From contig JAJDWH010000043.1 in NCBI GenBank assembly GCA_022825705.1, forward strand, positions 62,001 to 126,000: a stretch of 64,000 nt of DNA, in the 5' to 3' direction. The notes beneath the pieces are model-generated. The model was given only the letters and a program-made list of their open reading frames with translations. It was not told the DNA's origin and did not search any database. Shown here one piece after another: positions 26,715 to 37,945 of this stretch (positions within the stretch are counted from its first letter, which is position 1; each line of letters starts with the position of its first letter). This stretch comes from Alphaproteobacteria bacterium. Lineage in GTDB: Bacteria > Pseudomonadota > Alphaproteobacteria > TMED109. The translations under genes were made by a program, and so were the position numbers.

Positions 26715-26948
26715 ATGCCCCGAACGATCAATATTGGGAAGGCAAAGGCGCAGCTGTCGCATCTCATCGCTTGTGCAGAGGCCGGCGAGGACGTGATCAT
26801 CGCGCGCAATGGCGTGCCGGCCGCCCGGATCGTGCCGCTGAGACGTCCGGTAGCAGATACGATCGCGCTGCTTCGTGACGAACGGACCCGGCGGCCGAGG
26901 GTAACGGCCGCGGAAATCCGCGCAGCCAGGGATCAGGGGCGCACCTGA
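26715..26948 (+). CDS. VapB-type antitoxin (Phd/YefM family)
   Basis: 77 residues. The N-terminal domain has the Phd/YefM DNA-binding pattern: INIGKAKAQLSHLIACAEAGEDVIIARNG is the fold signature, here with AGEDV and NGVPAARIVPL clearly visible. The C-terminal part is charged and would cover the toxin active site. The TGA overlaps the ATG of the toxin gene by one base. It should repress its own operon together with the toxin. Confidence 0.9.
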   Translation: MPRTINIGKAKAQLSHLIACAEAGEDVIIARNGVPAARIVPLRRPVADTIALLRDERTRRPRVTAAEIRAARDQGRT

Positions 26949-27349
26949 TGGCAATGGTCGTCGACGTGTCGATCGCCGCCGCGTGGTGCTTCCCTGATGA
27001 ACATGCGGACGCTGCAGAGCAGGTGCTGGAGGATTTGCCCCGATTGGGCGGCGTGGTCCCCGGGCTGTTCCGGTACGAGGTCCGCAATGTTTTGATCGTC
27101 AACGAACGGCGGGCGCGTATTGATCCGACGGACAGCGCGCGGTTTCTGATGCGCCTGCGCAGCCTCGGTCTGCAGTGTGACGATGACCATGACGAGGATT
27201 CGATGATGGCGCTCGAGCGAAGCCATGCGCTCAGCGCCTACGATGCAGCGTACCTGGAGACCGCGCTGCGCCGAGGAGACCTTCTGGCGACGCTCGACCG
27301 GGACTTGGCGGGAGCCGCCGCCACCGCGGGCGTTTCCGTAATTCACTGA
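26948..27349 (+). CDS. VapC-type PIN domain toxin
   Basis: 133 residues. PIN ribonuclease: acidic residues are in VVDVSIAAAW (D6), YEVRN (glutamate), SAYDAAYLETA (aspartate) and LDRDL (aspartate), so the four-acid Mg2+ site is intact. VapC toxins cleave tRNA or rRNA when the antitoxin is degraded. The gene is translationally linked to the antitoxin gene. Confidence 0.9.
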   Translation: MAMVVDVSIAAAWCFPDEHADAAEQVLEDLPRLGGVVPGLFRYEVRNVLIVNERRARIDPTDSARFLMRLRSLGLQCDDDHDEDSMMALERSHALSAYDAAYLETALRRGDLLATLDRDLAGAAATAGVSVIH

Positions 27350-28648: not shown

Positions 28649-28677
28649 TTGATATAACATAACAAACACACTTTACT
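28649..28677 (+). promoter_or_regulatory. Promoter of the zur-znu operon with Zur-like operator
   Basis: TTGATA at 28649-28654 and TTTACT at 28672-28677 are separated by 17 bases and fit a housekeeping promoter. An AT-rich element at 28650-28664, reading GTTATGTTATATCA on the reverse strand, matches the left half of the Zur box known from Agrobacterium and relatives (ATGTTATA core) and sits over the -35 box. Repression of zur and znu by Zur when zinc is plentiful is inferred. Confidence 0.55.
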
Positions 28678-28716: not shown

Positions 28717-29118
28717 ATGAAAAAGCGTGGCGAGATCATGCAGGCGGAGGTGCTTGCCATCTTGCGGCGTCGCGGTACTCCGATGTCCGCTTACGAGGTT
28801 CTAGGCCAATTGCGCGACAGTCACCCGCAGCTTGCACCACCAACCATTTATCGTGCCTTGGCAGCGTTGACGGAGCGCGGCGGCGTGCACCGTCTTGAAT
28901 CCCTCAATGCCTTTATCGCCTGCAAGTCCGATTCCCATAAAGACGCGTCGATTCTCTCGATCTGTGATGATTGCGGGGAGGTCGAGGAATTCGTCTCGCC
29001 GGACCTCTTGAAGGCACTGTCCAGCATCGCGGGACAGTCGGGATTCGCGCCGACGCGCCATGTGATCGAGGTCCATGGCCAGTGTGCAAGCTGTGGATCA
29101 GCACAGGATCAGGCATGA
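28717..29118 (+). CDS. zur: Zinc uptake regulator, Fur family
   Basis: 133 residues from ATG 28717. A TTG start at 28678 would place translation inside the promoter. It has a winged helix with PTIYRALAALTERGGVHRLES, the Fur family recognition-helix region, and structural zinc cysteines CDDCG and CASCG. It is assigned to Zur rather than Fur because znuCBA follow directly and an ATGTTATA operator precedes. Its TGA overlaps the ATG of the 44-residue gene. Confidence 0.9.
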   Translation: MKKRGEIMQAEVLAILRRRGTPMSAYEVLGQLRDSHPQLAPPTIYRALAALTERGGVHRLESLNAFIACKSDSHKDASILSICDDCGEVEEFVSPDLLKALSSIAGQSGFAPTRHVIEVHGQCASCGSAQDQA

Positions 29119-29249
29119 GGGTCTGGCGCCGCGTGGCCGGTAGGGTCCTTCTCGTGGGAGTCGGTCCACGGCTCGCCGTGGCGGCACTGCTCATTATGGC
29201 GCTTTGGGCCGCGTTTTTCTGGGCGACGTCCACACCGGGGAGCCTATGA
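29115..29249 (+). CDS. 44-residue membrane peptide between zur and znuC
   Basis: ATG 29115 overlaps the zur stop (ATGA) and the TGA at 29247 overlaps the znuC start (ATGA), so the frame fits exactly between its neighbours. The peptide has a basic N-terminus (MRVWRRVAGR) and one hydrophobic helix (LAVAALLIMALWAAFFWA). I know of no named family. It may be an assembly or regulatory peptide of the zinc importer, or only a coupling device that carries ribosomes from zur to znuC. Confidence 0.6.
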   Translation: MRVWRRVAGRVLLVGVGPRLAVAALLIMALWAAFFWATSTPGSL

Positions 29250-29989
29250 CCTACGCCGTTGCGTTTCAGGAGCTGACCCTCGGATATGACCGCCATCCGG
29301 CGGTACGCCAGCTCGATGGCGAAGTTGCCGACGGCAGTCTGACCGCCGTCGTAGGGCCTAACGGTGCGGGCAAGTCGACACTGCTGAAAGGGATGACGGG
29401 CGCATTGCGTCCGCTCGCAGGGAGGGTCGACTTCGGAACCTGTACCCGGAGCGATATCGCCTACTTGCCGCAGCAATCGGACATCGATCAGTCGTTTCCG
29501 ATCACGGTCGTCGATCTCGTGGCTGTGGGGCTCTGGAGTGAGATCGGCGGATTCTTCGGGCTGCGTGCCGCGCTTCGTGCCCGGGTCGACGATGCCATCT
29601 CGGCCGTCGGTCTCACCGGGTTCGAGTCCCGACCCGTCGGTTCACTGTCGGGCGGACAGCTGCAGCGGGCGCTGTTCGCTCGGCTCTTGCTTCAGGATGC
29701 GCGGCTCGTGCTGCTGGACGAACCGTTCACGGCCATCGATGCCAAGACGATGGTCGATCTCCTGGGTGTGGTGCAGCGCTGGCACGGCGAGGGGCGTACG
29801 GTGATCACCGTTCTGCACGATGCGGAGACAGTGCGGGAGCATTTTCCCGAGACGCTGATATTGGCGCGCGATCTCGTGGCGCACGGTCCCACGGCGGAAG
29901 TGCTGACGGCGGCGAACCAGTTCCGTGCCCGCCAGATGTGCGAGGCATGTGTCGGCCCGCCCCATGACTGCGGGAGGCACGCTTCGTAA
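29246..29989 (+). CDS. znuC: Zinc ABC transporter ATP-binding protein
   Basis: 247 residues from ATG 29246. Walker A is GPNGAGKST (near residues 34-42), the Q-loop is YLPQQ, the signature is LSGGQ, Walker B is LVLLDEP and the switch histidine is in VLHDAE. The C-terminus has clustered Cys and His residues (CEACVGPPHDCGRHAS), which may bind zinc. It powers zinc import with ZnuB and ZnuA. The stop overlaps the znuB start by one base. Confidence 0.94.
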   Translation: MTYAVAFQELTLGYDRHPAVRQLDGEVADGSLTAVVGPNGAGKSTLLKGMTGALRPLAGRVDFGTCTRSDIAYLPQQSDIDQSFPITVVDLVAVGLWSEIGGFFGLRAALRARVDDAISAVGLTGFESRPVGSLSGGQLQRALFARLLLQDARLVLLDEPFTAIDAKTMVDLLGVVQRWHGEGRTVITVLHDAETVREHFPETLILARDLVAHGPTAEVLTAANQFRARQMCEACVGPPHDCGRHAS

Positions 29990-30855
29990 TGTGGGAAGCA
30001 CTGGTTCAGCCGTTCGCCGAATTCGGCTTCATGCGCCGCGCGCTGCTGGGTTGCATCGCGATCTCGGTGGGCGCGACGCCGGTGGGCGTCTTTCTGCTGT
30101 TGCGCAGGATGAGCCTGACCGGCGATGCGATGGCGCATGCGATCCTGCCCGGCGCGGCGGTCGGTTATCTCGTAGCGGGGCTCTCGCTCGGGGCCATGAC
30201 GATCGGCGGCCTGTTGGCCGGCATAGCCGTCGCGCTGCTTTCGGGCTTCGTCACCCGCGTCACGGCGTTGCGGGAAGACGCGAGCCTCGCCGCCTTCTAC
30301 CTGATCTCGCTGGCGCTTGGCGTGCTGATCGTCTCCACCCGCGGTAGCAACGTCGACCTGATGCATGTGCTCTTTGGCACCGTGCTCGCGCTCAACAACT
30401 CGGCGTTGATCCTGTTGTGCAGCATCGCGAGCATCACGCTGTTGGCGCTCGCACTGCTGTTCCGCCCACTGGTCCTTGAATGCGCTGACCCGCAGTTCCT
30501 GCGGGCGGTGAGCAGGCTGAGTGCCGTGACTCATTTCACGTTTCTCGCGCTTGTCGTCCTGAACCTCGTCGGCGGCTTCCACGCGCTCGGCACCCTGATG
30601 GTCGTCGGCATCATGATTGTTCCGGCCGCCGCCGCGCGCTTTTGGGCTATCAGCATTGGCGGGCTCATCCTTGCCGCGGTCACGATCGCCGTGGCCGCGA
30701 GCGTCTGCGGTCTCCTGGTTTCCTACCATTTCGGGTTGCCGTCCGGGCCGGCAATCATCCTCGCAGCGGGTCTCGCGTACGGGCTGTCGCTTACCTTCGG
30801 ACCGACGGGCAGCTTTGCCGCGCGGGTCCATCCGTATCGTCACGCTGACGCCTAG
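29989..30855 (+). CDS. znuB: Zinc ABC transporter permease
   Basis: 288 residues with eight to nine membrane segments. It belongs to the ABC-3 metal permease family, shown by MSLTGDAMAHAILPGAAVGY near the N-terminus and GTLMVVGIMIVPAAAARFW in the second half. It forms the zinc channel with ZnuC. The gap to znuA is 12 bases. Confidence 0.94.
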   Translation: MWEALVQPFAEFGFMRRALLGCIAISVGATPVGVFLLLRRMSLTGDAMAHAILPGAAVGYLVAGLSLGAMTIGGLLAGIAVALLSGFVTRVTALREDASLAAFYLISLALGVLIVSTRGSNVDLMHVLFGTVLALNNSALILLCSIASITLLALALLFRPLVLECADPQFLRAVSRLSAVTHFTFLALVVLNLVGGFHALGTLMVVGIMIVPAAAARFWAISIGGLILAAVTIAVAASVCGLLVSYHFGLPSGPAIILAAGLAYGLSLTFGPTGSFAARVHPYRHADA

Positions 30856-30867
30856 CTAGAGATTCCG

Positions 30868-31773
30868 ATGCGCGACCGCAGAAAACTGCTGATAGCAGCG
30901 ACGGCTCTTTTCGCCCTTGCGTTGACCGGTCCAACGCCGGGCTGGTCCGCCGGGCCCATCCCGGTGGTCGCCACCTTCTCGATTCTTGGAGACATGGTTG
31001 AGCGCATCGGCGGGGAGAAGGTGGCCGTCACCATGCTCGTGGGGCCCAATGGCGACGCCCATGTGTATCAGCCGATCCCGGAAGATGCGCGCGCCTTGAG
31101 CCAGGCCGAGATCCTCGTGGTCAATGGCCTCTCATTCGAAGGCTGGCTGGATCGACTCGTCGAGGCTTCGCACTTTGCTGGCGTCCGCGTGGTGGCAAGC
31201 GACGGAATTGAGCCGATCGCGTTTGCCAATCACGACCACCACGACGCCTTCGACCCGCATGCCTGGCAGAGCCTCGCGAACGCGTTGGTCTACGTCGACA
31301 ACATCACGGAGGCGCTGGCTACCTCTGATCCGGGGAACGCGGACTTCTACTACCGGAACCGTGCTGCCTATGTGGCCGAAATCGAGGTGCTGGAGGCGGA
31401 AATCCGCAAGCTGTTCGCGGAGTTGCCCGCGGACCGGCGCACTGTCGTGACGTCCCACGACGCCTTCGGGTACTTTTCCGAAGCCTACGGCCTGCACTTC
31501 GTGGCACCCCATGGCGTCAGCACGGAAAGCGAGGCGTCTGCCACGGATGTCGCCGCTCTGATCCGGCAGATCCGTCAAGAGGGGATCGAGGCCGTCTTTC
31601 TCGAATCGATCACCGACTCGCGTCTCCTCGAGCAGATCACCAGAGAAACCGGGGCTTCCATCGGCGGGACGCTCTACTCCGACGCGCTGTCCGGACCTGA
31701 CGGCCCTGCGTCCACCTATCTCGACATGATGCGTTACAACGCGACGACGCTTGCACGGGCCCTGTCGGCTTGA
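30868..31773 (+). CDS. znuA: Zinc ABC transporter substrate-binding protein
   Basis: 301 residues. A signal peptide (LLIAATALFALALTGPTPGWSA is cut near residue 26) precedes a cluster A-I metal-binding fold. Zinc ligands are expected in PNGDAHVYQP, DPHAWQ, VTSHDAFGYF and a late E/D. A short His-rich loop (NHDHHD) lies just before DPHAWQ, as in ZnuA proteins. It delivers periplasmic zinc to ZnuB. Confidence 0.94.
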   Translation: MRDRRKLLIAATALFALALTGPTPGWSAGPIPVVATFSILGDMVERIGGEKVAVTMLVGPNGDAHVYQPIPEDARALSQAEILVVNGLSFEGWLDRLVEASHFAGVRVVASDGIEPIAFANHDHHDAFDPHAWQSLANALVYVDNITEALATSDPGNADFYYRNRAAYVAEIEVLEAEIRKLFAELPADRRTVVTSHDAFGYFSEAYGLHFVAPHGVSTESEASATDVAALIRQIRQEGIEAVFLESITDSRLLEQITRETGASIGGTLYSDALSGPDGPASTYLDMMRYNATTLARALSA

Positions 31774-31914: not shown

Positions 31915-32967
31915 ATGCTGAGATTTATCCCTGACTCTGCCCGAGCCAAGCTGCCGGCAATCGTGGTCTGCGGGGTCGATGCCCGCACGAGAACCGAAAC
32001 CGTTGAGCACCTGCTGGAAACGGGCGGCGGTCGCTGGGCGGTGATCAGCAACGATGTCGACGGGCCGGAGTTCGCCGCGGCGTCGACCGACCGTGTTGCC
32101 GGGCAGATGGTGCCGCATGCCATCGGGTGTTTGTGCTGTATCACCCGCTCGGGCCTGGTCAGCAGCCTGCGCCGGCTCTTTGCCCAGCGGGCTCAGGGCG
32201 AAATCGAATTTGACCAGGTGTTGATCGAGACCTTGGCCGACGCCGATCCGGCGCCGATCATGCAAACACTGCTGAACAATGCGCTGGTCACGGAGTACTT
32301 TCGGCTCGACAGCGTGGTGACGGTCACGGGCGGCGGCGATCGGTTGAACGCGCTGGCGCGGTCACAATATGGCTTCAAGCAGCTTGCCGTCGCCGACCGC
32401 ATCGTGCTCGACACCGCGTCACGGGACGACCCGGCAACACAAGCCCTGCTGCAGGGATTGAATCCCGGGGCTGTCCGCGTGCCGTCCGATCAGCCTTTCT
32501 TGGCCGAAGCGTTGCTCGGGGCAGGCCTGGAAACACGATTGCTGGACGGCGATTTGAGCAGCTGGCTGGCCTCGCCGCACTATGCCAACAGCGATCTGCT
32601 TGAGAACGGCTTGCATGGCTTCGCGATTGAGTTTTCGCACGCGCTCGAATGGGAGGCCCTGCACGGCTGGTTGAACGCCGGCACGCAGTCGAACGGCGAC
32701 GTCATGTACCGAACGAAGGGTGCGATCAACATCAAGGGTATGGACGGGCCCGTAGTTATCAACGGCGTCCAGCACGTCTACCAGCCTCCACAATGGTTGC
32801 CCGAGGCTGCGGTTGATCGTTCCCGATTGCTGTTCATCACCTCCAATCTCGACCGCGCCGCAGTTGAAGACAGCCTGCGCCTGGACTTACCTCATTTTCA
32901 GCGCATGAGCGATGCACGCGCGGCCCGGGCCGCCCGCGCAGCGCGGGATCCGTCGCTACCGGCCTAG
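31915..32967 (+). CDS. COG0523-family protein lacking the GTP-binding motifs
   Basis: 350 residues from ATG 31915. Order and segments match the CobW/COG0523 metal-chaperone GTPases: the CxCC metal motif is present (GCLCCITRSGL near residue 69), as are the fold-equivalent lines VLIETLADADP and the C-terminal MYRTKGAINIKGMDGPVVINGVQHV. The nucleotide site is gone. The P-loop position reads VCGVDARTRTET instead of GxxGxGKTT, the ETTGLADP motif is ETLADADP, and NKxD is replaced by DTASRD. I infer a pseudo-GTPase that may bind zinc or pair with an intact paralogue. It follows znuA in the same direction. Confidence 0.85.
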   Translation: MLRFIPDSARAKLPAIVVCGVDARTRTETVEHLLETGGGRWAVISNDVDGPEFAAASTDRVAGQMVPHAIGCLCCITRSGLVSSLRRLFAQRAQGEIEFDQVLIETLADADPAPIMQTLLNNALVTEYFRLDSVVTVTGGGDRLNALARSQYGFKQLAVADRIVLDTASRDDPATQALLQGLNPGAVRVPSDQPFLAEALLGAGLETRLLDGDLSSWLASPHYANSDLLENGLHGFAIEFSHALEWEALHGWLNAGTQSNGDVMYRTKGAINIKGMDGPVVINGVQHVYQPPQWLPEAAVDRSRLLFITSNLDRAAVEDSLRLDLPHFQRMSDARAARAARAARDPSLPA

Positions 32968-33081: not shown

Positions 33082-33117
33082 TTGACATTTTTTCCTAATG
33101 CAATGTTATAATATATC
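33082..33117 (+). promoter_or_regulatory. Strong promoter overlapped by a Zur-like operator
   Basis: TTGACA at 33082-33087 and TATAAT at 33107-33112 are both perfect matches, 19 bases apart. GCAATGTTATAATATATC at 33100-33117 overlaps the -10 box. Its left half matches the Zur consensus (GNAATGTTATA) and its right half is weak. The same ATGTTATA core lies upstream of zur. Zinc-dependent repression of the downstream cyclase gene is inferred. Confidence 0.6.
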
Positions 33118-33158
33118 TTGACAGGGCATTTTCAGCCGACACCACGTTGGGAGGAACC

Positions 33159-34334
33159 ATGATGAGCGACGAACACCGTCCAATTAACTCCGAAGACCAG
33201 GAAACGGATGCACAGTCCGTTGAGGCCCAAGATGGTGACGGACTCGAATCCGAGTCCCGCCGCACGTTCATCAAGACCGCCACAATCGCCACAGGCGCGG
33301 CCGCAGTCGGCGCGTTCGGCGATGGCGTGATGCATGAACTGGACCTGGTGAAGCCCGCACATGCTGCCGAAGGCGGCATTGAAGGTACACCGATCGCCGG
33401 GAAATGGTGGCCGTCTCGCTGGGGCGAGGGCGACCAGACCGGCTCGACCAACCACATGACGCCCGAGGTGGCGCTGGACGCGGTAAGCCTGATCAAGAAG
33501 GGCAAGGTCTACAGCCTGGGCCGGGTCTACGAGTACGGCATGCCCTTGTTCGGCCAGCGCGTGTTTGCACTGCGGATCCCGGGTGCTCCGACCGGGGGCG
33601 CGTTCGGCAAGAACCAGATCATCTGGCACGACGAGATCCTGACCACCGAAATCGGTCAGGTCGGCACGCAGTTCGACGGACTCGCCCACATTGGCGCCCG
33701 CGTCGGTGAGGCGGGTGACCTGTCCCAAGAGGTGTTCTACAACGGTTACACCACGAAGGACCTGCACAACAACGACGCCGACATGGGGTCCACGGCCGGC
33801 GCCTACGGACTGCAGGCGCTCGGCATGGAACATGTCAAGCCGTTCTTCTGTCGTGGCATCCTGTTCGACGTCATGAGCCTCAAGGGGCGCATGCTGGACA
33901 AGGGTGAGGAGATCACCGTCGCCGACCTGCAGGCCTGCCTGGAACGTCAAGGCATGAGCGAAGCCGACATCACTGAAGGCAGCGCGTGCATGTGGCGCAC
34001 CGGCTGGGGCGAAGAGTTGTGGATGAAGGACAACGCCCGGTTCAATTCTGGCGAGCCCGGAATTGGCGTGGGCGCGGCGGAGTGGCTCGCGGCCAAGGGG
34101 ATTTCCGTGGGTGCGGCCGACGTCTGGGCGATCGAGTGCGTGCCCAACCCGGACCCGAACCTGGCCTTCCCCGTGCACCAGATTTTCCTGCCGAAGAACG
34201 GTATCCACATCCTGGAGAACGTGCGGCTCGACCATCTGGCCAATGACGGCGTCTACAAGTTCGCCTTCATCTTCTCGACGCTGCCGATCAAGGGTGCCAC
34301 GGGTTCACCGGGCAACCCGATTGCGGTCGTCTAG
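33159..34334 (+). CDS. Tat-exported cyclase-family (kynurenine formamidase-like) protein
   Basis: 391 residues from ATG 33159, preceded by GGGAGGAACC. A TTG at 33147 is less likely. The signal is of the twin-arginine type with an unusually long polar leader: SRRTFIKTATIATGAAAVGAF starts near residue 36. The body is a cyclase-family metal hydrolase. Its active-site line is GTQFDGLAHIG, a variant of GTHxDxPxH, seen in the larger cyclase subgroup. The substrate is unknown. The promoter carries a Zur-like operator, so it may be made under zinc limitation. Confidence 0.82.
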   Translation: MMSDEHRPINSEDQETDAQSVEAQDGDGLESESRRTFIKTATIATGAAAVGAFGDGVMHELDLVKPAHAAEGGIEGTPIAGKWWPSRWGEGDQTGSTNHMTPEVALDAVSLIKKGKVYSLGRVYEYGMPLFGQRVFALRIPGAPTGGAFGKNQIIWHDEILTTEIGQVGTQFDGLAHIGARVGEAGDLSQEVFYNGYTTKDLHNNDADMGSTAGAYGLQALGMEHVKPFFCRGILFDVMSLKGRMLDKGEEITVADLQACLERQGMSEADITEGSACMWRTGWGEELWMKDNARFNSGEPGIGVGAAEWLAAKGISVGAADVWAIECVPNPDPNLAFPVHQIFLPKNGIHILENVRLDHLANDGVYKFAFIFSTLPIKGATGSPGNPIAVV

Positions 34335-34340
34335 CGAACG

Positions 34341-35417
34341 TCAATCTGTGCAGGCAAGGCGGGCGAGCGAATCGGTATCGAAACGATACGCGAACAATCG
34401 CCCGTCCTTGTCTCCGCCCAGCAAGTGGTCCCCGTTCGGGGACCACGCCAGGCCTGCGATCGGAGTGCTCGGCGCGCTGACCAGACTGCGCCGCTGCGGC
34501 TGAACCGCTAGGCTCACTAGTTCAAGTCCGCCATCGTTGTACCCGGCCGCCGCCAGGGCGAGGCTGGGATTGGCGCAAACATTGCCGATCAGGTGTTCGC
34601 TGTAGCGCCCCAGCATGTGCGGCGCTGCCGCCGGCAGGCGGTCGTTCGAGAATGACCAACCGCTTACGGTATCGGCCCCCGAGGCGAGCAGCCACGATCC
34701 GTCAGCGCTCCAGCTGAGTGCCTTGACCTTGTTGATGCACGGCCCGAGCGTGGCGTCCTGCCCGGCCACGAGATCCCACACGTGCAGTGTCTTTTCCTGC
34801 GTGGCCGTCACCAGAAACCGACCGTTCCTGCTCCAGGTGAGATCGAGGTGTGAGCCTCGATGACACAGGCGCTGCGGCGCACCACTTCGCCCGTCCAGCG
34901 TCCAAAGGCTGACCCCGTTGTAGTGCGAGACGGCCAGACGCCGGCCACGGTCGTCAAAGGCCAGGCCGGCGACGGTGCTTGGATGCTCGGCAAGTACGTT
35001 GACCAGCCGGCCCTTGGTGTCCAGAAGCCGGACTTCCGGGCCGTCGGAGACTGCTCGCAGGCCACACGGGTGCGCGACCAGTTGATCCGGCCAGGAACGT
35101 GTGAGCAGTGCCAGCTCTCGTGGTCCGTCCAAGGGGTGGACTTGGTACAGAGCGCTGTCGTCGGCCCCGCACAGGAAGCCGCGCTCCTGACAATCAGGGG
35201 CCAGTGCCAGCACTGCGCCTTCTGTCAGCGGCCATACCGAGAGGGAGGATTCCGGTTCCAAAAGGGAAACAGTGCGGACGCAGCCGTCCCCTCCCGCGAA
35301 CGCTGCAAACTGCCCGCTACGATCGACACACACGCCGGTCAGCGGTGCGTTCACGATCCAACTATCGAGCCTATGGTCACTCACGGCCTTCGACCCGGTC
35401 GTCGGTTGAAGGAACAT
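34341..35417 (-). CDS. WD40 repeat protein next to the COG0523 GTPase
   Basis: 358 residues with about seven WD-like repeats. Recognisable units are GVCVDRSGQFAAFAGGDGCV, GLAFDDRGRRLAVSHYNGVSLW, DLTWSRNGRFLVTATQEKTLHVWD and GLAWSPNGDHLLGGDKDGRLF, which together suggest one complete beta-propeller. There is no signal peptide. It lies downstream of a COG0523 GTPase on the same strand, and such pairs recur in proteobacterial zinc regulons. It may act as a scaffold for metal transfer. That role is inference. Confidence 0.83.
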   Translation of the reverse strand: MFLQPTTGSKAVSDHRLDSWIVNAPLTGVCVDRSGQFAAFAGGDGCVRTVSLLEPESSLSVWPLTEGAVLALAPDCQERGFLCGADDSALYQVHPLDGPRELALLTRSWPDQLVAHPCGLRAVSDGPEVRLLDTKGRLVNVLAEHPSTVAGLAFDDRGRRLAVSHYNGVSLWTLDGRSGAPQRLCHRGSHLDLTWSRNGRFLVTATQEKTLHVWDLVAGQDATLGPCINKVKALSWSADGSWLLASGADTVSGWSFSNDRLPAAAPHMLGRYSEHLIGNVCANPSLALAAAGYNDGGLELVSLAVQPQRRSLVSAPSTPIAGLAWSPNGDHLLGGDKDGRLFAYRFDTDSLARLACTD

Positions 35418-37015: not shown

Positions 37016-37114
37016 CTCGCAAACCTGTCTGTTACATAGTTACAGTTTCGACATTATGGATTGATCTGCCGTGACCTCAACGTCAGCGGCTTGCGTCGGG
37101 GTCGGGACGCCGAC

Positions 37115-37240
37115 GCACAGCCCGTGCGGCCGGATGTACCGGATCAACGACATGTTCGAGAACGACCGGCCGGCGGACGCCAGGACGGTGCGGCACGTGG
37201 ATCAGCGCCGCGCGTGCCCCTCCGGATTCTGCACCGCGAC
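37115..37240 (+). pseudogene. Decayed internal fragment of glcF
   Basis: Bases 37115-37205 align without gaps to 23522-23612 of the intact glcF gene. By my count about 75 of 91 positions agree. In protein terms SPCGRMYRINDMFENDR mirrors SPRGRIYLIKDMLENDR. After 37212 a second short match (CGTGCCCCTCCGG) follows a 21-base deletion, and then GFCTAT appears, a word found earlier in GlcF. No start, iron-sulfur cysteine set or remaining domains are present. It is a remnant of a duplicated or foreign glcF, just upstream of a toxin-antitoxin module. Confidence 0.7.
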
Positions 37241-37301
37241 GTTGACAGAACGCGCCGCCATGCCAAGACTTGCATTCTGGTTGCAGATTGGAAGTCAGCC
37301 C

Positions 37302-37538
37302 ATGCCGTCCATCACGATCAAGGGCATCTCCCCCGCACTCCATGAGCGGTTGAAGAGCATTGCGCGACGTCATCACCGAAGCCTGCAGAACGAGGTCATC
37401 GCCTGCCTCGAACGCTACGCGGAGCAACCGCCGCGATCCAAGGCGGAGCTGATGGCCGAAGCCGCCCGGCTCCGAGGCAAGCTGCCGCCCGTCGATCACG
37501 ACCTCGTGGACCAGTACAAGCGCAGCGGCCGGCCGTGA
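37302..37538 (+). CDS. FitA/VapB-type ribbon-helix-helix antitoxin
   Basis: 78 residues from ATG 37302. The N-terminal ribbon-helix-helix reads SITIKGISPALHERLKSIA, followed by HHRSLQNEVI, as in FitA-like Arc-type antitoxins. A longer frame reaching back to 37071 would translate the glcF remnant and is not supported. The stop overlaps the toxin start (GTGA). Confidence 0.85.
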   Translation: MPSITIKGISPALHERLKSIARRHHRSLQNEVIACLERYAEQPPRSKAELMAEAARLRGKLPPVDHDLVDQYKRSGRP

Positions 37539-37945
37539 ACGTCGTGGTTGACACGAACATCATCGCGTACTACTGGCTGCCGGGGGCGCATACCGAGAGC
37601 GCTGTGTCCCTGCGGCGACATACCGACGAGTGGTTTGTGCCGACGCTGTGGCGATCGGAATTCCGCAACGTGTTGGCCCGCTATCTTCGCGCCGGCATGA
37701 TCAGTCTCGCTCAGGCTGGCGCACTGATTCGGAGTGCGGAGGCCGAGTTGGTTGATGGCGAGCGCGACGTCGACTCCGCCGCCGTGATGGGCCTTGTCGC
37801 GAAGTCGGCCTGCTCGGCATACGACTGCGAGTTTGTCGCTTTGGCCAAGTCGATGGGTTATCCGCTGGTCACGGAAGACACCCGCATCGTGCGTACATTT
37901 CCCGAGACGGCAGTCACGATGGACGATCTGCTGGCCGGTCAATGA
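37535..37945 (+). CDS. FitB/VapC-type PIN domain toxin
   Basis: 136 residues from GTG 37535. The PIN domain begins VVDTNIIAYYWL (aspartate near residue 6). RSEFRNVL holds the second acid and SAYDCEFVALA the third. VTEDTRI completes the site. It probably acts as an RNase released when its antitoxin decays. Its 3' end overlaps the trmB end by 7 bases in convergent orientation. Confidence 0.9.
   Translation: MNVVVDTNIIAYYWLPGAHTESAVSLRRHTDEWFVPTLWRSEFRNVLARYLRAGMISLAQAGALIRSAEAELVDGERDVDSAAVMGLVAKSACSAYDCEFVALAKSMGYPLVTEDTRIVRTFPETAVTMDDLLAGQ

Follow-up and report, generated by a model that had tools for sequence, protein, structure and literature searches.

The solved protein closest to the one described here is YjiA of Escherichia coli (PDB 1nij/4ixm), its best match both in predicted fold and in sequence, which likewise carries the cobW and CobW_C domains and a GCxCC motif. 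YjiA has GTPase activity (PMC2770081) and an intact P-loop and nucleotide motifs, which our protein does not have. In CobW, cobalt is bound only weakly without nucleotide, and high-affinity metal binding needs Mg-GTP (PMC7895991). A second comparison is offered by mycobacteria. Rv0106, a COG0523-like protein repressed by Zur, keeps neither the GTPase motifs nor the complete CxCC (Haas 2009, PMC2770081), so that COG0523-like proteins without a GTPase are already known. MSMEG_6069, grouped with Rv0106 in that article, has been named MPY recruitment factor (MRF) and is Zur-regulated (PMC7174638), its role being in ribosome hibernation. Haas 2009 further describes a subfamily 5, with WD40, znuABC and creatinase genes as neighbours. 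By this description the cluster analyzed here, with its WD40 gene, zinc transporter and intact COG0523 gene, is similar; the description fits the intact COG0523 protein of the cluster, whereas a pseudo-GTPase and a Tat-exported cyclase are absent from the neighbours it names. In the titles and abstracts listed by our literature searches, we found no mention of a CxCC-keeping pseudo-GTPase lineage tied to a Tat enzyme, nor of a link between COG0523 and cyclases or between COG0523 and the Tat pathway.

Results

The COG0523 pseudo-GTPase and its orthologues

We analyzed a window of 64,000 nucleotides, the whole stretch of DNA under study, in which an open reading frame of 350 residues runs on the forward strand from an ATG at 31915 to a stop codon ending at 32967. 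Pfam cobW (53.3 bits, residues 26-166) and CobW_C (59.8 bits) lie above the Pfam cut-offs in this protein and in all four orthologues scanned, and YjiA is its sole convincing relative by sequence among solved structures (phmmer, E 9.5e-14), in keeping with the CobW-type layout that the original prediction had proposed. The cobW alignment begins at profile position 13, hence the first P-loop positions are unmatched. GVDARTRTET occupies the place of the P-loop, ETLADADP that of ETTGxADP and DTASRD that of NKxD, and GCLCC is retained.

We compared 15 pseudo-GTPase rows with 30 P-loop-intact alphaproteobacterial relatives, in window numbering. G23, S24, G25, K26, T28, G108, D139 and K167 are each present in 30/30 intact relatives and D169 in 28/30, and none of them is the majority letter among the pseudo-GTPases; T27, N46, C72, C74, C75, E105 and D111 are retained in the clade. 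Walker A (GxxGxGKT) is missing from all 14 rows that cover the stretch, the window protein included, with arginine in 13 and glycine in one at the position of the P-loop lysine, and the protein is therefore not classed as a GTPase. In Walker B (hhhExxG) E105 remains and glycine 108 is replaced, and the base-reading motif N/T/SKxD has lost both its lysine and its aspartate. Decay of NKxD already in the intact relatives was considered and rejected, since N/TKxD is present in nearly all of them. The original prediction, with replacements in the P-loop, at the glycine of ETTG and in NKxD but a retained CxCC, is confirmed.

The AlphaFold2 model (pLDDT 81.9, pTM 0.83) has YjiA as its best match among solved folds (4ixm; E 7.1e-17, TM 0.65/0.71), and the normal phosphate-binding loop that would have spoken against the original prediction does not appear in it. 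A strand at residues 13-19 is followed by three loop residues (20-22) and a helix from residue 23. The intact paralogue served as a control; its model is weak overall (pLDDT 69.2, pTM 0.50) and has five loop residues (13-17) between a strand at 5-12 and a helix that begins at lysine 18 of the P-loop. When G20 and G12 are aligned, the pseudo-GTPase helix begins three residues earlier than that of the control, and the prediction is thus of a phosphate loop reshaped partly into helix. The model gives the CxCC loop no resolution, with pLDDT below 50 at residues 49-71 and 75-77.

Is this a gene in decay? We find 16 distinct orthologues besides the window copy, 68-97% identical to it. Within the genus 5/7 genomes carry the gene, counting that of the window, and so do 5 of 385 sampled genomes of the class, two of these five from another family; the other 21 genomes of the family yield only distant matches, and those that were aligned have a P-loop. 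Two short peptide patterns, which would miss more divergent members, were run against 84,980 species genomes and recover 15 orthologue loci at 68-92% identity, one remote locus (L074) having been dropped; several of the 15 are the same genes as in the genus and class searches, and the 16 are counted accordingly. The carriers are metagenome-assembled Rhodospirillales, Geminicoccaceae and unclassified Alphaproteobacteria, with two labelled Gammaproteobacteria or Thiotrichales, and the spread is patchy. Plasmid-borne matches are 29-32% identical among the 20 of 1062 matches listed. Pairwise dN/dS over the whole gene is 0.074, 0.103, 0.169, 0.246, 0.148 and 0.160 in six pairs. The pseudo-GTPase is conserved and under purifying selection and its orthologues lack the P-loop as well; given that they share the motif loss and this selection, we reject a single decayed copy. 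To this extent the original prediction is supported: a COG0523 protein without the canonical nucleotide site is encoded, and conserved, in a zinc-response cluster. L074 (remote and cut), L073 (split over two frames) and L030 (with a gap of N) were left out of the alignments. The last two belong to a second copy of the cluster in one assembly (G004 contig 86 / SB0662_bin_7) that resembles the version of other families; its pseudo-GTPase carries the gap or the split frame, and it may be a foreign contig or a transfer.

That the metal site is kept is supported only in part. C72, C74 and C75 of GCxCC are invariant in 15/15 pseudo-GTPase rows. Lost from the clade are E50 (the glutamate of NEFGE), H55, H229 and H290, found in 23/30, 30/30, 30/30 and 29/30 of the intact set, respectively; all four are plausible metal ligands, and metal binding by the pseudo-GTPase may consequently be weak. 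The clade has also gained two invariant residues, C19, which is threonine in 30/30 intact relatives, and H68, and these may serve as metal ligands instead. Given that CobW needs Mg-GTP for high-affinity metal binding, a protein without a nucleotide site must hold metal in another way or not at all.

The zinc cluster and its Zur-like boxes

The pseudo-GTPase starts 141 nt behind the last of four forward-strand genes. These encode a Fur-family regulator (28717-29118), whose best NCBIfam match is Zur at 103.6 bits, below the cut-off of 167; an ABC ATPase of the zinc transporter AztA type (29204-29989, the longest frame, with a later ATG possible at 29246; AztA 223.2 bits, cut-off 220); an AztB-type permease (29989-30855; AztB 267.1 bits, cut-off 280; Pfam ABC-3); and an AztC/ZnuA-type zinc-binding protein (30868-31773; AztC 320.5 bits, cut-off 350; Pfam ZnuA). 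Zinc transporter genes do precede the pseudo-GTPase, in line with the original prediction; of the NCBIfam models they match AztABC best, where a znu operon had been named at first. Downstream follow a Tat-exported cyclase on the forward strand and, on the reverse strand, a WD40 repeat protein (34341-35417; Pfam WD40), present in 12/15 orthologue loci, and an intact COG0523 GTPase (P0002; 35672-37015; Pfam cobW 207.5 bits), a distant paralogue with an insert before CobW_C. The intact gene, which had been placed beside the pseudo-GTPase, is in fact 2.7 kb off on the other strand, with the cyclase and WD40 genes between. PIN-type toxin-antitoxin-like frames, recognized by eye, flank the zinc cluster on both sides (26948-27349 and 37071-37945), and another intact CobW/HypB/UreG-type gene (141 bits) lies about 8 kb to the left of the window, at 53894-54406 of contig 24 in the same genome (G000).

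At least one aztABC gene scores above 200 bits in 11/15 orthologue loci; the stretches of L061, L062, L070 and L072 contain no aztABC match above 100 bits, those of L061 and L072 being cut by contig ends. In L062, L069 and L070 the pseudo-GTPase is divergent from an importer ATPase of the FecE/FhuC/BtuD type (L062:5570-6391, L069:8814-9671 and L070:8892-9752), possibly for metallophore uptake. These neighbours suggest that the association of the pseudo-GTPase with metal or metallophore uptake extends beyond aztABC.

For the search of regulatory sites we used ATGTTATANNATAACAT, which we take to be the Zur consensus. With at most three mismatches, Zur-like boxes are found in the 420 nt upstream of the pseudo-GTPase in 9/14 loci (0.04 expected), upstream of the cyclase in 6/13 (0.01 expected) and upstream of P0002-type genes in 1/10, the latter two counts being those of the starts that could be placed. 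In the window, the 420 nt upstream of the pseudo-GTPase itself contain no such box; one lies upstream of the cyclase (33103-33119), its two mismatches unreached in 100 shuffles of 420 nt, and another, with three mismatches, precedes the whole run from the regulator through aztABC to the pseudo-GTPase (28649-28665). The entire window holds four sites at up to four mismatches, and ten Markov copies of it gave 0-2 each. From the position of these boxes we infer control of the pseudo-GTPase by Zur. A weak palindrome, TGTTACAtaGTTACA (37029-37045), precedes the intact COG0523 gene by about 30 nt, and four relatives have a comparable site equally far from theirs; it is a possible variant of the Zur site, and the window copy is no better than shuffles.

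A Tat-exported cyclase accompanies the pseudo-GTPase

The gene directly downstream (33162-34334, forward strand) encodes a PF04199 cyclase of the kynurenine formamidase/isatin hydrolase family (Pfam Cyclase 65 bits; PDB relatives 5ibz and KynB) with a Tat signal (SRRTFIK...AHA); the longer frame from 33147 scores 23.4 bits with NCBIfam TAT_signal_seq, cut-off 16.7. Its relatives show a QVGTQFDGLAH motif and a Tat signal. The RR motif is present in 13/13 cluster cyclases read, and tatC in the window's own genome. KynB is a zinc enzyme of this family (PMC4243253) and isatin hydrolase a manganese enzyme (PMC6117287). In the window cyclase HxGTH has become QxGTQ, glutamine replacing two of the zinc histidines of KynB, so that no more than one of the two metal sites of KynB is to be expected. 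The aspartate of the motif and the final histidine match KynB by spacing, and a later histidine and glutamate align with the stretch of KynB H161 and E173.

A Tat cyclase is found in 14/15 orthologue loci, the exception (L072) lying at a contig end. It is directly downstream of the pseudo-GTPase in 11 of them; in L064, L066 and L069 the pseudo-GTPase is in the cluster without adjoining the cyclase. Among the 14 whole genomes that bear orthologues, 13 have a cluster-type cyclase at 78% identity or more; the remaining one, G418, in which the pseudo-GTPase locus is cut by a contig end, has only cyclases 40-43% identical. Likewise, in the sample of 385 class genomes the same five have both the pseudo-GTPase and the cluster-type cyclase. 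Matches to the window's cyclase (P0003) on plasmids amount to 22 rows at 33-39% identity. Spread of the cyclase beyond Alphaproteobacteria was considered and rejected: 3 of 398 genomes of the phylum match at 1e-60, all of them from Alphaproteobacteria.

Is the pairing peculiar to the pseudo-GTPase? We fetched all 32 loci with cyclase matches outside the pseudo-GTPase clusters. Eleven of them have a P-loop-intact COG0523 gene no more than 4 kb from the cyclase, and all 12 cyclases there have an RR signal. The other 21 contain no COG0523 gene in the fetched stretch, which in five (L109, L110, L118, L125 and L126) is shorter than 2.5 kb on one side, and their readable N-termini look Sec-like on inspection. 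Once this rule had been seen, we fetched 16 further loci from one order; they contain three Tat cyclases, each with an intact COG0523 gene within 4 kb. The same set has one exception to the rule: at L140:5759-7323 an intact COG0523 gene, truncated at the contig end, follows a Sec-like cyclase in the same orientation. For the 44 of 49 cyclases whose N-terminus could be read by script (all except L124, L126, L138, L139 and L149), the count is 15 Tat with COG0523, one Tat without, one non-Tat with and 27 non-Tat without; the sole Tat cyclase without COG0523, L106, is by our reading of its N-terminus a pattern artefact and is still counted as Tat. The contrast corresponds to about one split in the cyclase tree, and hence these counts are not independent and their Fisher values cannot be taken as probabilities. 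Both kinds of cyclase meet in the window's genome, where the second, Sec-like PF04199 cyclase (L114; G000 contig 8:313116-314051) is 49% identical to the first and has no COG0523 gene within about 5.6 kb.

The intact pairs, all from Alphaproteobacteria (L095-L105 and L135-L137), thus have the same kind of cyclase partner as the pseudo-GTPase, and the COG0523 proteins of L095-L105 are 32-37% identical to it. They differ in their intact P-loop and in gene order, the two genes lying on opposite strands except in L095. They differ also in their upstream sequences: Zur-like boxes at up to three mismatches occur at 0/14 of their COG0523 genes, with one box at four mismatches in L103, and we reject these pairs as Zur targets.

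Descent of the pseudo-GTPase

The pseudo-GTPases form one clade (support 100/100) on a stem of about two changes per site. The intact neighbour P0002 falls elsewhere in the COG0523 trees, in a different and distant subfamily, and a recent duplication of this neighbour is for that reason rejected. In a careful tree, from which long-branch rows were excluded, the cyclase-paired L013 among them, the clade sides with the cyclase-paired COG0523s, which are joined there by the unpaired row L039; the support of 93/84 falls short of the tool's star, and the 11 cyclase-paired rows of the trees include L041, whose pairing is deduced from the gene and a cyclase at two contig ends. In a quick tree the clade sits in an open fork. 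The AU test, run on the reduced set, accepts both the grouping with cyclase-paired proteins (p 0.765) and a rival one (p 0.767) without deciding between them. The pseudo-cluster cyclases have as their sister in the cyclase tree the Tat cyclase of L095 (SH-aLRT 98), which has an intact COG0523 gene 3.8 kb away; this gene product (L013) is placed elsewhere, on a long branch, in the quick tree. Taken together, the careful COG0523 tree and the cyclase tree make it likely that the pseudo-GTPase descends from an intact partner of the cyclase.

Discussion

What does a COG0523 protein do once its nucleotide site is gone? We favour, tentatively and at somewhat less than even odds, a nucleotide-independent descendant of a dedicated metallochaperone, induced through Zur and serving the Tat cyclase in the cytosol before export. 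It would descend from a metallochaperone of the COG0523 family whose partner was a PF04199 cyclase exported by Tat. The pseudo-GTPase would have given up GTP-gated capture and release of metal, and zinc shortage would induce it through Zur. In the cytosol it would act as a partner of the cyclase, holding the apo-enzyme, handing over metal, or both; metal would pass via the CxCC loop, perhaps with the new invariants C19 and H68, and the folded cyclase would then leave through Tat. Such an order of events has a parallel in MncA, a Tat protein that acquires manganese in the cytosol, the Sec/Tat logic being known for MncA and CucA (PMC8867077). The sequences show the lost nucleotide motifs, the conservation under purifying selection, the Zur-like boxes and the shared cluster with the Tat cyclase; that Zur controls the pseudo-GTPase, and that it binds metal, contacts the cyclase and takes part in a loading step, is what we infer. 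Against this reading weigh the unsure branching order, the single split behind the counts of Tat and COG0523, the lost candidate ligands, the two zinc histidines missing from the cyclase, the lack of a box directly upstream of the window's own copy, and the intact COG0523 and aztABC genes, which accompany the pseudo-GTPase almost as frequently as the cyclase does.

A more specific form of this proposal is possible and more doubtful. The protein would be a GTP-independent COG0523 metallochaperone with one client, metallating or proofreading the Tat enzyme in the cytosol under zinc shortage, with a permanent site of CxCC and C19/H68 replacing the nucleotide site, and COG0523 proteins would as a rule attach to the Tat-exported version of an enzyme and not to its Sec-exported counterparts.

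The original prediction had seen in the pseudo-GTPase a regulatory or partner subunit of zinc delivery, which here would make it a subunit that regulates the intact COG0523 GTPase or forms a hetero-oligomer with it. We regard this as unlikely, although the intact P0002-type gene is present at 10/15 orthologue loci, in one of them partial, and at 78% identity or more in 11/14 orthologue-bearing genomes. The intact neighbour comes from a distant, different subfamily, and it is not always there: G416 has only a 60% relative, the best in G409 is 44% identical, and G421 has none at 1e-40, the clusters of G409 and G421 reaching contig ends. Co-occurrence with both the zinc transporter and an intact COG0523 gene, the constancy of which was proposed as a check, is frequent and not universal. 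The cyclase co-occurs with the pseudo-GTPase at least as well as the intact protein does, and with 13/14 genomes for the one and 11/14 for the other, co-occurrence alone cannot choose between them.

Alternatively, the pseudo-GTPase may store or buffer zinc as part of the Zur response, without a dedicated client, the cyclase being merely a fellow Zur target. Zur-like boxes upstream of both genes would fit, as would the box between or near the divergent starts of the pseudo-GTPase and the FecE/FhuC-type ATPase in L062, L069 and L070. Intact relatives, however, have a Tat cyclase of this kind as partner where no Zur-like box at up to three mismatches is seen, which indicates that the pairing of COG0523 with the cyclase is independent of Zur, and we consider a store without a client improbable.

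Less probable again is an MRF-like adaptor, which would recruit another protein in zinc shortage, as happens with a ribosome hibernation factor in mycobacteria, and carry no metal. Rv0106, Zur-repressed and without GTPase motifs, and the Zur-regulated MSMEG_6069 offer the precedent (PMC2770081, PMC7174638). Yet the NCBIfam MRF model (NF047431) does not match the pseudo-GTPase at E 0.001, on which ground we reject it as an MRF orthologue, and it strictly retains CxCC, unlike Rv0106. Finally, binding of nucleotide in a non-standard way, for which the retained Thr27, Asn46, Glu105 and Asp111 might speak, is very improbable given the loss of glycines and lysine from the P-loop, of the glycine from ETTG and of the lysine and aspartate that read the base, and given a loop that is partly helix in the prediction.

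COG0523 proteins occur in all kingdoms and few of their clients are known; in CobW, metal is gated by GTP (PMC7895991). A natural, conserved form that lacks the GTP site and is encoded next to one enzyme sets the recognition of a client apart from gating by nucleotide. The contrast between Tat and Sec versions of the cyclase points to a concrete client for this lineage, and one that is testable also where the intact pair exists.
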